Part shown: positions 10,922 through 22,447 of the stretch, in pieces | How the letters are laid out: each line of letters begins with the position of its first letter | Numbering within the stretch: the stretch's first letter is position 1 | Assembly (NCBI GenBank): GCA_937930535.1 | Contig: CALGKJ010000080.1 | Span: forward strand, 1 to 64,000 | DNA: 64,000 nt | From: an uncultured Clostridia bacterium | GTDB taxonomy: Bacteria > Bacillota > Clostridia > Lutisporales > Lutisporaceae | Direction: 5' to 3' | Program-made: the position numbers and the translations under genes | The notes under the pieces: generated by a model | Told to the model about the DNA's origin: nothing | What the model saw: only the letters and a program-made list of their open reading frames with translations | Databases searched by the model: none

Positions 10922-12265
10922 ATGAGCTTGATTGATGGAATCCAAAAGATACCACCCAATAGTCTGGAAGCTGAACAATCTGTATTAGGTGCAATGCTTT
11001 TGGACAAGGAAGCCATTTCAGCAGCGACTGAGCTAATAACAGGAGATGACTTTTACAGAGAAGCTCACAAAGAAATTTTTGAAGCGGTGGTAGAGCTTTT
11101 TGATCGGGGAGAACCAGTAGACTTAATAACACTTACTGAAAAGCTAAAGGTTAGAAATACCCTCGAAGCAGTAGGTGGAGTTACGTATCTTACTAATCTT
11201 ATGAATGTGGTGCCTACAACCCACAATGTAGGGTATTATGCAAAGATTATAGAAGATAAAGCTATACTTAGAAAGCTGATAAAGTCATCAAATGAGATAA
11301 TAGCAAAAAGCTATGAGGCTTCGGATGATGTTTTAACTATTATAGATAAAGCCGAAAAAAGTGTTTTTGATATATCTTTGAAAAGATCCTCAAAGGGATA
11401 TGAGCATATAAAGAATATACTAACTGTAAACTTTGATATGATAGAGGACTTATATCTGAACAAAGGTAAAATTACAGGGGTAGCCACAGGCTTTGATGAT
11501 TTAGATAATAAGCTTGCCGGCTTCCATGAATCTGAGCTTATTCTGATTGCAGCAAGACCAGCTATGGGAAAGACATCCTTTATGATGAACATTGTTCAGC
11601 ATGCTGCTGTTCGTGGAAAGGTTGCCACAGCAGTATTCAGTCTGGAAATGTCAAAGGAACAGCTTACACACCGTCTGCTGTGTGCTGAGGCATTAATAGA
11701 CGCACACAGACTGAGGGTGGGAGATATAAATGAGGATGAGTGGGTAAAGCTTGCAAGAGCCATGGGTCCTTTGTCAGAGGCACCAATATATATTGATGAT
11801 ACTCCTTCTATTTCTATAACAGAGCTGAGAGCAAAATGCAGAAGACTGAAAATAGAGCATAACCTGGGCTTGGTAGTTATAGACTACTTGCAGCTTATGA
11901 CGGGTAAGGCACAATCTGAAAGCAGACAGCTTGAAATATCAGAGATATCAAGATCCCTAAAAGCACTTGCAAAGGAACTGAACATACCAGTGGTGGCCTG
12001 TGCGCAGCTTTCACGTGCTCCTGAGCTTAGAGCTGATCATAGACCTATTTTGTCTGATCTTAGAGAATCTGGAGCAATTGAGCAGGACGCAGACGTTGTA
12101 ATGTTTTTATATAGAGATGAATACTATCACCCTGATTCAGAAAAGAAAAATATAGGTGAGGTCATAATAGCTAAGCAAAGAGCTGGTTCTACTGGTACAG
12201 TAGAGCTTGTATGGCTGGGGCAGTTTACTAAGTTTGCAAATAAAGAAAAATATGTTAATGTATAA
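10922..12265 (+). CDS. dnaB: Replicative DNA helicase
   Basis: The protein has 447 residues. The N-terminal DnaB domain (PPNSLEAEQSVLGAMLLD ...) binds primase. The C-terminal RecA-like motor shows Walker A (ARPAMGKTSF), LVVIDYLQLM (Walker B), and the SDLRESGAIEQDADVV motif. It is the ring helicase of the replisome (called DnaC in Bacillus). The ATG at 10922 follows AAGGAGAG. No intein interrupts it. It ends at a strong bidirectional terminator. Confidence 0.97.
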   Translation: MSLIDGIQKIPPNSLEAEQSVLGAMLLDKEAISAATELITGDDFYREAHKEIFEAVVELFDRGEPVDLITLTEKLKVRNTLEAVGGVTYLTNLMNVVPTTHNVGYYAKIIEDKAILRKLIKSSNEIIAKSYEASDDVLTIIDKAEKSVFDISLKRSSKGYEHIKNILTVNFDMIEDLYLNKGKITGVATGFDDLDNKLAGFHESELILIAARPAMGKTSFMMNIVQHAAVRGKVATAVFSLEMSKEQLTHRLLCAEALIDAHRLRVGDINEDEWVKLARAMGPLSEAPIYIDDTPSISITELRAKCRRLKIEHNLGLVVIDYLQLMTGKAQSESRQLEISEISRSLKALAKELNIPVVACAQLSRAPELRADHRPILSDLRESGAIEQDADVVMFLYRDEYYHPDSEKKNIGEVIIAKQRAGSTGTVELVWLGQFTKFANKEKYVNV

Positions 12266-13400: not shown

Positions 13401-13459
13401 CTGCGATTAATATTAAATATGCCCAACCATTTTGGTTTATGCACAATGATTAAGATATA

Positions 13460-13742: not shown

Positions 13743-13790
13743 TGAACATGTTTATCCACAATGGGAATAAATTGTGGATAAACATGTTCA
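13743..13790. other. 20-bp perfect inverted repeat enclosing two DnaA boxes
   Basis: Arms at 13743-13762 and 13771-13790 are exact reverse complements around an 8-base loop (GGGAATAA). Each arm holds one consensus DnaA box: TTATCCACA (13752-13760) and TGTGGATAA (13773-13781). Confidence 0.9.
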
Positions 13791-13935
13791 TATGTGTATA
13801 AATAATGTGCAAAAGTAAACATAATGTGTATAACTTTTTTTGCGGATAATTTAGAGGTATTGAAACAGTTAAATTGGCAATAAAGGTACGAACATATGTG
13901 CATATCTCTGTGGATAATGTGGATAATGTGGATTC
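13743..13935. other. DnaA-box cluster, origin-like
   Basis: Four exact consensus DnaA boxes (TTATCCACA or its complement) lie at 13752, 13773, 13909 and 13918. One-mismatch boxes lie at 13793 and 13825 (TGTGTATAA) and 13841 (TGCGGATAA), and a weaker one at 13927 (TGTGGATTC). The last three boxes are abutting 9-mers. A very AT-rich stretch follows (about 13940-14100), as in DNA-unwinding elements. dnaA, dnaN and rpmH are not in the window. The coding strand does not switch here, so this may be an accessory DnaA cluster instead of the main origin. Confidence 0.8.
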
Positions 13936-14106
13936 TAGCTTAATTTTGTTATAAAAAATTATTTAAATTATTAACATTTACATATAATATAAATAAAACG
14001 CAATCTATGGCTTTAAAAAATATGTACAAGAATTTAATATAGCATAACATTATTCGTGCTATGTCGAATTATATTATAAATTCATATAAAATTATTCGTA
14101 AAAGTA
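13936..14106. other. AT-rich stretch next to the DnaA boxes
   Basis: Almost pure A/T with no ORF. It is a candidate unwinding region by position and composition only. Confidence 0.4.
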
Positions 14107-14353: not shown

Positions 14354-15730
14354 ATGAAATATGATGTTGTTATAGTAGGAGCTGGTGCCAGTGGGATTTT
14401 TACAGCTTATGAGCTTATTCAAGCTAATATAAACATCAAAATTGCAATACTGGAGAAGGGACACAGCTTGCAAAGAAGGGTATGCCCGATTGATAATAAA
14501 AAGATACATTCCTGCGTTCACTGCTCTGTATGCAATATTATGAACGGATTTGGCGGAGCTGGCGGAATGTCAGACGGAAAATATAACATTACTAATAATT
14601 TCGGTGGAGAGCTGTATAAATATGTTGGAAGAAAAGAAGCTTTGGATTTAATGGATTATGTGGACGAAGTCAATTGTAAAATGGGCGGTGCAGAGGCAAG
14701 GCTCTACTCTACAGAGCATGCAGGACTGAAAACAAAGGCTTTAAGATATGACCTGCATTTGCTGGATGCAAAGGTTAGACATCTGGGAACAGATAGAAAT
14801 CTAGTAATACTCGGTAATCTCTATGACTATCTGAAGGATAATGCTGATATTATATTTGATACAGAGGTAACTGATATTGAGAAGACAGGCAGTGAATTTA
14901 TCGTATCCACTAATAATGGAGATTATAATAGTGAATATTTAGTTTTGGCTACAGGCAGATCCGGCTCTAAGTGGATCTCCAAGGTATGCAGCAAGCTGGG
15001 AATTCAAACTCAAAGCAACCGAGCGGATATTGGTGTGAGAGTTGAGCTGCCGGCAGCAGTATTTGAGCATATTACCAGTGAGGTTTATGAAAGCAAAATA
15101 GTTTATAGAACAAAAAAATATAACGATTTAGTTCGTACCTTCTGTATGAACCCTCATGGAGAAGTAGTAACTGAGAATACTAACGGAATAATAACAGTAA
15201 ACGGACACAGCTACTCTGACCCTAAATACCATACAGAAAATACAAACTTCGCTCTATTGGTTTCTAATCGCTTTACAGAGCCCTTCAAAAACAGTAATGA
15301 GTATGGAGAGTCTATTGCAAGGTTATCAAATATGCTGGGCGGCGGTGTACTGGTTCAGCGGTTTGGTGATTTGATAAAGGGCAGAAGATCAAGTGAAAGA
15401 AGAATGGAAAAAAGCTTCTTAAGAGCAACCCTAAATGCTACACCTGGAGACTTGAGTCTTGTAATCCCAAAAAGACAGCTTGATGATATTATTGAAATGA
15501 TAGTAGCATTAGATAAAATAGCACCGGGTACAGCAAATGAAGATACGCTGCTATATGGTGTAGAGGTTAAATTCTACAATTCAAAGGTTAAAGTAGACGA
15601 AAACCTTGAAACAATTATAAAAGGCTTGTATATACTGGGTGACAGCTCAGGCGTGACACATTCTCTATCTCAGGCTGCGGCAAGCGGTGTCCATGTGGCA
15701 AGACTGTTAGGCAGCAAGTATAAAAACTAG
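14354..15730 (+). CDS. NAD(P)/FAD-dependent oxidoreductase (COG2509-like)
   Basis: The protein has 458 residues. The N-terminal dinucleotide-binding motif is VVIVGAGASGIFTAYEL (about 5-21), followed by EKG, then a Cys cluster (C, CVHCSVC at about 47-60) and a GFGGAGGMSDGK loop. The C terminus has a second FAD contact (YILGDSSGVTHSLSQAAASGVHVARLL). This is the pattern of the uncharacterised FAD-dependent dehydrogenases of COG2509. Substrate unknown; it is cytosolic. ATG follows GTGGAGGTG. It is 38 bp upstream of purA and probably co-transcribed with it. Confidence 0.8.
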   Translation: MKYDVVIVGAGASGIFTAYELIQANINIKIAILEKGHSLQRRVCPIDNKKIHSCVHCSVCNIMNGFGGAGGMSDGKYNITNNFGGELYKYVGRKEALDLMDYVDEVNCKMGGAEARLYSTEHAGLKTKALRYDLHLLDAKVRHLGTDRNLVILGNLYDYLKDNADIIFDTEVTDIEKTGSEFIVSTNNGDYNSEYLVLATGRSGSKWISKVCSKLGIQTQSNRADIGVRVELPAAVFEHITSEVYESKIVYRTKKYNDLVRTFCMNPHGEVVTENTNGIITVNGHSYSDPKYHTENTNFALLVSNRFTEPFKNSNEYGESIARLSNMLGGGVLVQRFGDLIKGRRSSERRMEKSFLRATLNATPGDLSLVIPKRQLDDIIEMIVALDKIAPGTANEDTLLYGVEVKFYNSKVKVDENLETIIKGLYILGDSSGVTHSLSQAAASGVHVARLLGSKYKN

Positions 15731-15768
15731 CATAAGACTGATTAAAAAATACGGAAGAGGTGAAAGTT

Positions 15769-17046
15769 ATGCCTTCAATGGTTATTGTTGGTGCACAATG
15801 GGGAGATGAGGGAAAAGGTAAGCTTACAGATTATCTTACAAATAAAGCAGATGTAGTAGTTAGATATCAAGGAGGCAATAACGCCGGTCACACTGTTGAG
15901 GTTGATGATCAGCAGTATAAGCTTCAATTGATACCTTCAGGAATACTTCACGCTGATAAGCTAAATATAATAGGAAATGGTGTTGTAATTGATCCTGAGG
16001 CATTTCTAGGCGAAATAAAAAAGCTTCATGATAGAGATATACCAACATCAAATCTAAAAATAAGTGATAGAGCCCATATAATACTGCCTTATCATAAAAA
16101 GATAGATGAATTATCTGAGATTAGAAGAGGCAGCAATGATATAGGCACTACTAAAAAAGGCATTGGGCCGGCATATATGGATAAGACAGAGCGCATAGGT
16201 ATAAGAGTATGCGACCTTATGAAAAAAGATGTTTTTGCTGAAAGGCTTAAGCAAAATATAGAAATAAAAAATCAGTATCTTAAAGAAATATTCGGCTTTG
16301 AGGGCTACAGTTATGATGAGGTATTGGAAAAATACCTGCAATATGCTGAACAGCTTCGTCCTTATGTGGCGGATACAAGTGTTCTGGTGTATAACTCAAT
16401 AAAAGCTAATAAGCGGGTACTGTTTGAAGGTGCTCAAGGTACTCTTTTAGATCTGGATTATGGAACATATCCTTATGTAACATCTTCACATCCAGTAGCA
16501 GGAGGTGTCTGTGTGGGTGCCGGCATAGGTCCGTCCATGATACAAAAAGCTGTTGGTGTAGTTAAGGCCTATACTACCAGAGTTGGCAAAGGCCCATTTC
16601 CTACAGAGCTGCATGACAGTACTGGAGAGCTTATCAGGCAAAAAGGCTTTGAGTTTGGAACAGTTACCGGAAGAGCAAGAAGATGCGGCTGGTTCGACGC
16701 TGTAATTGTAAGATATGCTGCCAGAATAAGCGGACTTACGGGGCTTGCTATAACCAAGCTGGATACTATTGCAGGTTTTGATAAGGTTAAGATATGTGTA
16801 GGCTATAAAATAAATAATGAGATAATAAGAGATTTTCCTGCCAGCATAGAGGATCTTGCAGAATGTGAACCTATATATGAGGAGTTTAACGGCTGGGAGG
16901 ATGTCAGCAATATAACAGAGTATAAAAAGCTTCCAACCAATCTAATAAGGTATCTGGAAAGAATAGAGGAGCTTTGTGAAACTCGAATATCAATACTATC
17001 TGTAGGACCAAAACGTGATCAAACCATTGTAATTGAAGAGTTCTAG
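15769..17046 (+). CDS. purA: Adenylosuccinate synthetase
   Basis: The enzyme has 425 residues and makes adenylosuccinate from IMP, aspartate and GTP, the first committed step to AMP. The N terminus [21 protein letters not shown] contains the GDEGKGK loop; NNAGHTV holds the catalytic His; the GTP/IMP loops [12 protein letters not shown] and [12 protein letters not shown] and the C-terminal [10 protein letters not shown] are intact. The ATG at 15769 is chosen because GGAAGAGGTGAAA lies directly upstream and the family begins at this point. The purA-tRNA-walR order is that of Bacillus. Confidence 0.97.
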
Positions 17047-20279: not shown

Positions 20280-20331
20280 TGACAAAAAATATTTTGTGAG
20301 AATGTTTGACAAAATATTTTTTGTCAAACAT
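20280..20331. promoter_or_regulatory. Nested, mutually exclusive inverted repeats
   Basis: TGACAAAAAATATTTTGT (20280-20297) is the exact reverse complement of 20309-20326. A second perfect pair, ATGTTTGACAAAA (20302-20314) / TTTTGTCAAACAT (20319-20331), overlaps it. Only one of the two hairpins can form at a time. They lie between the 3' end of the dnaC-like gene and the satD promoter. Confidence 0.7.
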
Positions 20332-20370: not shown

Positions 20371-21351
20371 TTATATTATCCTATGCATCTTAAGACGTAT
20401 ATCATCTCCGATAAATTCAAACATATCAAAGTTGCCAAATATTCTGGAGGTTATTCTATCGGAATACACCTTAATTATTTCGTCCACATCAAGATTGGTT
20501 GAAATAATCAGCTTCTTATCATTGCTGATGCGTCGGTTTAATATATTGTAGATAGCCAGACCTGAAAACTGAGTAGTAAGCTCTGTGCCAAGGTCATCAA
20601 TAATAAGCAGGTCACAGTTGTAAATGTCACTTAGGTACTGGCTGTTTTGCTCCTCATTATCAAAATCAAACTTGTATTTCCTGACTATATCAATTAAATC
20701 GGGACTATGCTGGTATATTACGCTTTTGTTATGATCAATAAGCTCCTTTGCTATTGATTTACATAAAAAGGTTTTTCCAAGCCCCGGCTTTCCTATAAAT
20801 AAAAGGTTTTTATTGTTATTATCAAAGCTTTTTGTAAAATCCAGACATTTTTTAAAAATATCCTTCATATTATCTCTTGGAGATTGACCATGCTCGTTTT
20901 TTTCATCGGAGTAAAAGTCTATTCTGAACTGATCGAAGTTTTCTTTTTTAAAGCTGTCGCTCATGCTTGACTGCTTGTATAGCAAATCTATTTCCTTTTG
21001 AATATAGCAGCCGCATTTTGAATTATTTACAAAGCCTGTATCCTTGCAGCTTTTACATTGATGCTTTAGCTCTAGGAAATCTATAGGATACTTGTAGGAG
21101 GATAAAAGCTCAGCTTTTTCTATTTTTAAATCCATTTGTTTTTTATGTAGTTCGTCCAAAAGCTTTTCTCTTTCCTGAGAGTTTTTTAGTATAGCCCTAG
21201 TTATATCAACACTTATTCGCACCATTTCCTTTTCTATTTCTTTAAGTCTCGGCAGCTTTTCGTAAACAATGCTTTTTCGATGCTCCAAATCATTTTTAGA
21301 TTTTTCTCTGATATCCTCGTAATGCTTCATTATCTGCTGTGTTCTATTCAC
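20371..21351 (-). CDS. DnaC-like helicase loader, AAA+ ATPase
   Basis: The protein has 326 residues. A helical N terminus (1-100) is followed by a zinc-ribbon-like CKSCKDTGFVNNSKCGC segment (about 116-132). The AAA+ core has Walker A GKPGLGKTF, Walker B LLIIDDLGTE and sensor region ISTNLD. This matches the IstB/DnaI/DnaC group that loads the replicative helicase. The start is GTG at 21351 after GAGGTGAG, overlapping the end of the dnaD-like gene by 8 bp. The pair probably supplies primosome functions at the origin together with dnaB. Confidence 0.88.
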   Translation of the reverse strand: MNRTQQIMKHYEDIREKSKNDLEHRKSIVYEKLPRLKEIEKEMVRISVDITRAILKNSQEREKLLDELHKKQMDLKIEKAELLSSYKYPIDFLELKHQCKSCKDTGFVNNSKCGCYIQKEIDLLYKQSSMSDSFKKENFDQFRIDFYSDEKNEHGQSPRDNMKDIFKKCLDFTKSFDNNNKNLLFIGKPGLGKTFLCKSIAKELIDHNKSVIYQHSPDLIDIVRKYKFDFDNEEQNSQYLSDIYNCDLLIIDDLGTELTTQFSGLAIYNILNRRISNDKKLIISTNLDVDEIIKVYSDRITSRIFGNFDMFEFIGDDIRLKMHRII

Positions 21352-22378
21352 TTAACTCACCTCGGCTCTTTTTTAAGAGATTTTCTTTAAGCAGCTTGGT
21401 GTCATATGTACGGTTTGAAAAATTGTTGAAGGATTTACTGCTTTTTGCTTCCTTGCTAATGCTCCTATCCTTCTTGGTATCGTGCTTTAGTATATAGGCT
21501 TCTATTTCTTCCATGGTTTTGAGCTTGCAGTTGTTCCACTCTGTAAGTATCTTATCAATATAGTGAAAGGAGGGTTTTATGGTTTGAGCAGTAAGCTCAC
21601 AGGCTTTAAGTACAATGTCCTCACTGTATTCATAGGTATAAAACCACTTATGCATTAGTTCTTCCTCAGGAGTCGTAGGCTGCCTGCCAAGACGTAAAAA
21701 ATTAATTACCCTGCTGTATTTTTGCCACTTTTCCTTGTGTCTTGCGGCATATTCAGCGGCTTTTTCGGCAGAATTAATACCTGCATCATACCAATTCTTA
21801 GCTACTTGCTTTAAATAAGGAAGATCTTTCTTATTTCTGGAAAAACAATCTTCTATAATAAGCATAACTACATCCGGTGGAAAGCCATAGTCATCAATCC
21901 AATCCAGAAAGGTGAACATTTCGCTTTGTGAAGCTTCTCTTCCGGCAATCTTTTTTATGTACTCAAACATGTCCTTGATTTTGTAATTGCTTCGTGAATT
22001 AATGATTCTTTGAGGACTGTATTTGTCTGTAATAACAGGAGCGTCCTTAATATTAAGCACTATCTCCTTTATACTCAGAAACTCTATGTCATAACTGCCT
22101 TTTTCATGCTCTGCGAGTCCCATATTAAGCTTGATTATACCTTGTTCCTCCCAGTACCTCCATGCATTAAGCACTTCCTCCTGAGATAGATTCAAGGTTT
22201 TTGCAAGCACTTCATTTGAAAGATAGTTATTAGTATAGCTTGCAGCATACTTAAGCCCAAGTATATAGACCTTGACATAATCACCTGGCGCAGCCGGCAT
22301 ATAGTGATTAATAAATATATTCTCAATAGCAGTATTATGCAAATCCTCTTTATTTGTTTTGTATCTAAAATTATTCAA
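21344..22378 (-). CDS. DnaD domain protein, replication initiation
   Basis: The protein has about 344 residues. An N-terminal winged-helix region (NEVLAKTLNLSQEEVLNAWRYWEEQGIIKL) precedes two DnaD/DnaB-type domains, the second ending in a YxxxIL...W pattern (FHYIDKILTEWNNCKLKT). DnaD-domain proteins remodel origin DNA and help load the helicase. I choose TTG at 22378 because GAGGTG lies 6 nt before it; an in-frame TTG at 22417 has no ribosome-binding site. It sits in an operon with the dnaC-like loader. Confidence 0.85.
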   Translation of the reverse strand: MNNFRYKTNKEDLHNTAIENIFINHYMPAAPGDYVKVYILGLKYAASYTNNYLSNEVLAKTLNLSQEEVLNAWRYWEEQGIIKLNMGLAEHEKGSYDIEFLSIKEIVLNIKDAPVITDKYSPQRIINSRSNYKIKDMFEYIKKIAGREASQSEMFTFLDWIDDYGFPPDVVMLIIEDCFSRNKKDLPYLKQVAKNWYDAGINSAEKAAEYAARHKEKWQKYSRVINFLRLGRQPTTPEEELMHKWFYTYEYSEDIVLKACELTAQTIKPSFHYIDKILTEWNNCKLKTMEEIEAYILKHDTKKDRSISKEAKSSKSFNNFSNRTYDTKLLKENLLKKSRGELSE

Positions 22379-22447
22379 TATAAGCACCTCATAAGTTTTG
22401 ATTATGGTAAATAGCAAAAGATATCATAATTATACCATATTTAGATG

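Follow-up and report, generated by a model that had tools for sequence, protein, structure and literature searches.

We found that the window, a 64,000-nucleotide stretch of chromosome from an uncultured Clostridia bacterium, carries downstream of dnaB a 45-bp core built around tandem DnaA boxes, which is, by sequence identity, more conserved across the whole order than the replication origin itself. The reading that we favor, with somewhat better than even confidence, is that the locus is a dedicated oriC-proximal regulatory element of DnaA boxes outside the origin, on which DnaA is predicted to form a fixed complex, possibly together with a second protein. Such an element probably helps to control the timing of the start of chromosome replication.

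The first-pass annotation of the window had reported a dense cluster of DnaA boxes at this place, and the cluster proved to be real. The window holds seven strict DnaA boxes (TTATNCACA), starting at 13437, 13752(+), 13773(-), 13793(-), 13825(-), 13909(-), and 13918(-), and six of them fall within the 175 bp of positions 13752 to 13926. Variant boxes come on top (TTTTGCACA, ATATGCACA, TTATCCGCA, and GAATCCACA, all on the minus strand), within less than 200 bp. The box density is far above chance, with six strict boxes per 200 bp at the cluster and at most two when 300 sequences matched to the window in composition were generated by a first-order Markov model. Genome-wide, the consensus TTATCCACA has 51 copies in 4.69 Mb, of which 4 lie inside the cluster; its reversed control has 81. 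Three 9-mers abut at 13909–13935; thus, the claim of three tandem abutting boxes holds for the abutment, while the third box, TGTGGATTC, is degenerate. The AT-rich DNA said to follow the boxes was also found, with an AT content of 83%. All features are listed in Table 1.

Table 1. Coordinates of the features in the window.
Feature	Positions	Strand	Basis or remark
dnaB replicative helicase	10922..12265	+	constant upstream neighbor of the element in relatives
Perfect 20-bp inverted repeat with 8-nt loop and two facing consensus boxes	13743..13790	.	
Consensus DnaA box, left arm	13752..13760	+	box scan
Consensus DnaA box, right arm	13773..13781	-	box scan
DnaA box TTATACACA	13793..13801	-	box scan
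Variant DnaA box TTTTGCACA	13806..13814	-	box scan
DnaA box TTATACACA	13825..13833	-	box scan
Variant DnaA box TTATCCGCA	13841..13849	-	box scan
Conserved 45-bp core CGAACATATGTGCATATCTCTGTGGATAATGTGGATAATGTGGAT	13889..13933	+	single copy, 20/22 genomes, 98.6% mean identity
Invariant 26-bp run CGAACATATGTGCATATCTCTGTGGA, including the GAACA motif (not a DnaA box)	13889..13914	+	identical in 20/20 genomes
Weak DnaA box ATATGCACA that opens the tandem series (12 bp start-to-start to the next)	13897..13905	-	invariant in 20 genomes
Consensus DnaA box TTATCCACA	13909..13917	-	box scan
Consensus DnaA box TTATCCACA, abutting the 13909..13917 box	13918..13926	-	box scan
Degenerate third abutting box GAATCCACA	13927..13935	-	sequence; partly conserved
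AT-rich flank (83% AT) without DnaA-trio runs	13936..14090	.	not conserved
FAD-dependent oxidoreductase	14354..15730	+	downstream neighbor
purA adenylosuccinate synthase	15760..17046	+	

In a DNA search of the window's family (f1), a block around positions 13887–13934 (45–83 bp, identity 85–100%) turned up in 20 genomes out of 22, spanning seven genera; the two genomes without the core are 69% and 80% complete. One relative (L016) is JAKPKE010000035.1, an unclassified Bacillota metagenome bin. The run CGAACATATGTGCATATCTCTGTGGA occurred exactly once per genome in 20 of the 22, with no mismatch over 26 bp, while the reversed control never occurred. Conservation of the boxes in relatives, a comparison that the first-pass annotation had called for, was thus confirmed for the core. 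Its mean identity across the 20 genomes was 0.986, and the flanks were not conserved. The best 45-column windows reached 0.80 between dnaA and dnaN and 0.78 upstream of dnaA, values that may be understated by gappy alignments. Written out, the core consists of GAACA, two bases, TGTGCATAT, CTC, TGTGGATAA, TGTGGATAA, and TGTGGAT. Its boxes, which start at intervals of 12, 9, and 9 bp, all face the same way in the 20 genomes.

This pattern bears on the question of whether the cluster could be a passive sink for DnaA, in which the number of boxes alone would matter. The extra boxes outside the core do vary in number and orientation, as a sink would allow, but the non-box positions and the exact spacing of the core are kept across seven genera. 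Pure titration would need no conservation at the level of bases, and our own reading, in its simplest form, thus accounts poorly for the main observation. We regard the passive sink as quite improbable. It leaves the frozen non-box bases and spacers unexplained; a fixed nucleoprotein complex would fit better. The core is constrained almost perfectly, its non-box GAACA included, which suggests a fixed DnaA complex, in which a second protein may occupy GAACA. Of the readings put forward by the first-pass annotation, the one that survived is the DnaA-titrating cluster, or more broadly a regulatory one, and the conservation of the core across relatives strengthens it.

The perfect inverted repeat of 20 bp that holds two consensus boxes facing each other, also claimed before, is indeed present, with arms at 13743–13762 and 13771–13790. 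It is the longest perfect inverted repeat (loop 3–30) in the window, and folded as single-stranded DNA it gave a z of -8.8. A search for RNA elements returned no Rfam match at the gathering score, with sub-threshold matches to microRNA hairpins at the palindrome only. The relatives carry one to three boxes ~100 bp upstream of the core, in variable number and orientation: tandem in genera g2, g3, and g5, facing in g1 (the genus of the window), g4, and g7, and outward in g6. This comparison was made between genera, as the sole other g1 genome (G007) did not yield the region. Conservation of the palindrome, another point raised for checking, failed for its sequence, while the facing arrangement recurred in g4 and g7. 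We therefore rejected a conserved palindrome, since the conservation is limited to the presence of boxes ~100 bp upstream of the core. From these alignments, the palindrome is best described as the local form of a variable upstream box module, and the earlier idea of a cruciform concerns the very part whose sequence is not conserved.

The first-pass annotation had correctly placed the cluster away from dnaA. The window's genome is assembled in 252 contigs, with dnaA on a separate contig (C98) that ends ~170 bp upstream of the gene, and rpmH on C165, where a separate DnaA-box cluster immediately precedes it. Thus, the bipartite origin rpmH-dnaA-dnaN is present and split by an assembly gap. The break falls within rpmH-dnaA (L012 = G000:C98:1-9823; L206 = G000:C165:1-20000), and part of the dnaA promoter boxes is missing. 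Among the relatives, nine carry dnaA and the element on a single contig, 27–39 kb apart (for instance, 31.6 kb in G014, 33 kb in G006, 33.6 kb in G008, 39 kb in G010, and 29 kb in G016).

A chromosomal or secondary origin at the cluster, as the first-pass annotation had considered, could account for the dense DnaA boxes, the AT-rich flank, and the helicase and loader genes close by. However, the GC skew changed sign at rpmH-dnaA in five of five f1 relatives and was mostly positive across the element, which lies inside one arm; no sign change was seen at the element itself. A DnaA-trio-like run was found in 17 of 17 dnaA-dnaN regions, including that of the window's own genome, as compared to 0 of 20 elements, the window included. 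Furthermore, the dnaA-linked boxes are still present at the canonical origin, and in the stretches read of five relatives, clusters of at least three strict boxes occurred at the origin and the element only. The chromosomal origin was thus rejected on the skew flip at rpmH-dnaA, 29–39 kb off, and on the missing trio-like run. A second origin module is unsupported on the same evidence, namely, the absence of a skew flip, the distance from dnaA, and the absence of a trio-like run. We give an origin of either kind next to no credence.

The element was found downstream of dnaB and in the same orientation in every relative checked. The location given before, between the dnaB/GNAT genes and purA, was right on the dnaB side, while the next gene to the right is an FAD-dependent oxidoreductase, followed by purA. 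The gene downstream differs by lineage, with two types of FAD oxidoreductase in f1 and purA in f70 and f89, and lies ~200 to 1000 bp from the core over unconserved DNA.

These changes weigh against the main rival to our reading, a gene-specific operator, by which the core would be a DnaA-responsive and possibly SOS-responsive control site of a nearby gene (the FAD oxidoreductase, purA, or dnaB). In Bacillus subtilis, DnaA does serve as a transcription factor in a number of regions other than oriC (PMC4447404), and most f1 genomes share a TTG ~39 bp upstream of the core, which would be compatible with a role in transcription. However, no consistent -10 hexamer stands beside this TTG, and promoter-like sites were fewer than in shuffles; a promoter was rejected because consistent hexamers are absent. 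The core also begins with CGAACATATG, which resembles the CGAAC-N4-GTTCG box, its first ten bases approximating half an SOS box, and such boxes are present in the window's genome, one of them upstream of a dinB-like polymerase gene. Yet the second half-site of the core is always GTGC and never GTTC, and the LexA/SOS palindrome is thus absent there. An SOS box was rejected on the same ground: GAACATATG resembles one, but its partner half-site is never right. With both the downstream gene and its distance changing between lineages, we consider an operator unlikely. As a separate observation, the CGAACATTTGTTCG palindrome before the dinB-like gene (L212:1502) suggests the form of the SOS box in this genome, where LexA itself gave a weak, partial match only.

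We find it hardly credible that the core is unrelated to DnaA and represents a small open reading frame, a conserved RNA, or a relic of a mobile element. The core is crossed by one frame that is open in every genome, but the lengths and starts of the reading frames vary and the third positions are invariant. The frame is open because of the 9-bp repeats, and a small peptide was rejected on this account. A conserved RNA is opposed by the Rfam result given above. Against a mobile relic, viral contigs contained no exact copy of GAACATATGTGCATATCTC, and phages and plasmids no copy close to full length; the partial matches in Microviridae, Vibrio phages, and IncY plasmids represent tandem DnaA boxes.

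Beyond the window's family, a class-wide sample of 391 genomes searched with a looser pattern showed the element in its context only in f1 and f70. When the order of genome G326 was searched, the element was present in six f70 genera and in three f89 genomes. There it takes a diverged form, GAAC(A/G)-N2-TGTGCATA, followed in most copies by TGTG-type boxes at 12 and 21 bp, and it lies between dnaB and purA wherever the locus could be checked. In four f70 genomes, the element is 27–38 kb from dnaA in the same orientation. The search of the order of f1 returned f1 genomes only, and at least two orders are thus involved. The gene order is shared by five Clostridium loci, at which the element was not found and almost no boxes were present; thus, its function is not general. 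Two further families (f38 and f57) carry a similar module, TCAACA-N2-TGTGGATAA-N3-TGTGGATAA, which in the f38 genome G241 (L151:1480-1510) lies directly upstream of dnaA. The likeness of the two sequences may reflect common ancestry or common design of the core and an origin module.

By analogy, the DnaA-box clusters (DBCs) of B. subtilis are the established parallel for the element. Reviews describe six of them outside oriC, whose joint deletion leads to early initiation (PMC5295017, PMC13220808, citing Okumura et al. 2012), and the title of Okumura et al. (2012) calls them oriC-proximal. Judged by these review descriptions, both consist of DnaA boxes in non-coding DNA outside the origin of a Bacillota chromosome. 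In contrast to the DBCs, our element is a single locus per genome with a near-invariant 45-bp core and a non-box motif, and it is fixed after dnaB across the order and in related families. Escherichia coli datA likewise has DnaA boxes at a fixed chromosomal place outside oriC and acts on initiation; however, it works with IHF, while the cofactor of our element is at most putative, and IHF and datA are reported to be absent from B. subtilis (PMC13220808). DARS1 and DARS2 of E. coli are similar in that their core is strongly conserved and its three DnaA boxes keep a fixed arrangement, but boxes I and II point in opposite directions (PMC8682772), whereas those of our core are tandem and same-facing in 20 genomes. 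The bipartite oriC of Firmicutes (for example, in Clostridioides difficile; PMC7561715) also has DnaA-box clusters, and another clostridial family has tandem boxes spaced by 12 bp (TGTGGATAActcTGTGGATAA) immediately before dnaA; unlike these origins, the element is not beside dnaA and has neither a DnaA-trio-like run nor a skew switch. Last, the replication regions of IncY plasmids and Microviridae have tandem DnaA boxes, abutting or 3-bp spaced. These are unrelated replicons without the GAACA motif, and the likeness is limited to the box arrangement. In rodent-gut Microviridae (L229:1500-1560 and L228:1460-1550), the boxes follow directly after the replication initiator gene, with five copies of TGTGGATAA at gaps of 2–3 bp in L229.

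Taking up the regulatory element again, we infer from the relatives that it lies ~30–40 kb from oriC on the rpmH side, so close that its duplication would follow initiation almost immediately. DnaA is predicted to occupy the consensus boxes at 13909–13926 and to spread head to tail onto the neighboring boxes, with the upstream box module as a presumed second anchor. The doubled capacity to hold or inactivate DnaA could then delay the next round of initiation. A more specific version is rather less probable, and we put it forward tentatively: a sequence-fixed control site of Clostridia, similar to datA or DARS, which would alter the nucleotide or oligomer state of DnaA with a second protein reading GAACA. 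The reviews consulted report no sequence-fixed control locus of that sort for B. subtilis, and among open-licence papers we found no description of a DnaA-box element between dnaB and purA. Whether B. subtilis possesses regulators of the balance between ATP and ADP forms of DnaA is described as unknown, with datA and DARS absent (PMC13220808). The core is a candidate DnaA control site in Bacillota. As a 45-bp site at a roughly constant distance from oriC, with relatives in two orders, it is compact and directly testable, and its conservation names the bases to mutate. The Clostridium loci with the same gene order provide a natural control, and the lineages with and without the element are known.

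The genes around the element showed some features of their own. The FAD oxidoreductase (14354–15730) is ~80% identical in g2 and g6 and ~40–45% in g3, g4, g5, and g7, as if it had been replaced, and Clostridium species carry a type with 76–79% identity. Genes for a DnaD-domain protein and a DnaI/DnaC-like helicase loader lie on the minus strand of the window at 20371–22417, near dnaB, purA, and the element, and this arrangement near dnaB-purA was also found in f70. Past the 3' end of the loader gene, a perfect 18-bp inverted repeat with an 11-nt loop (20280–20326) probably represents a terminator.
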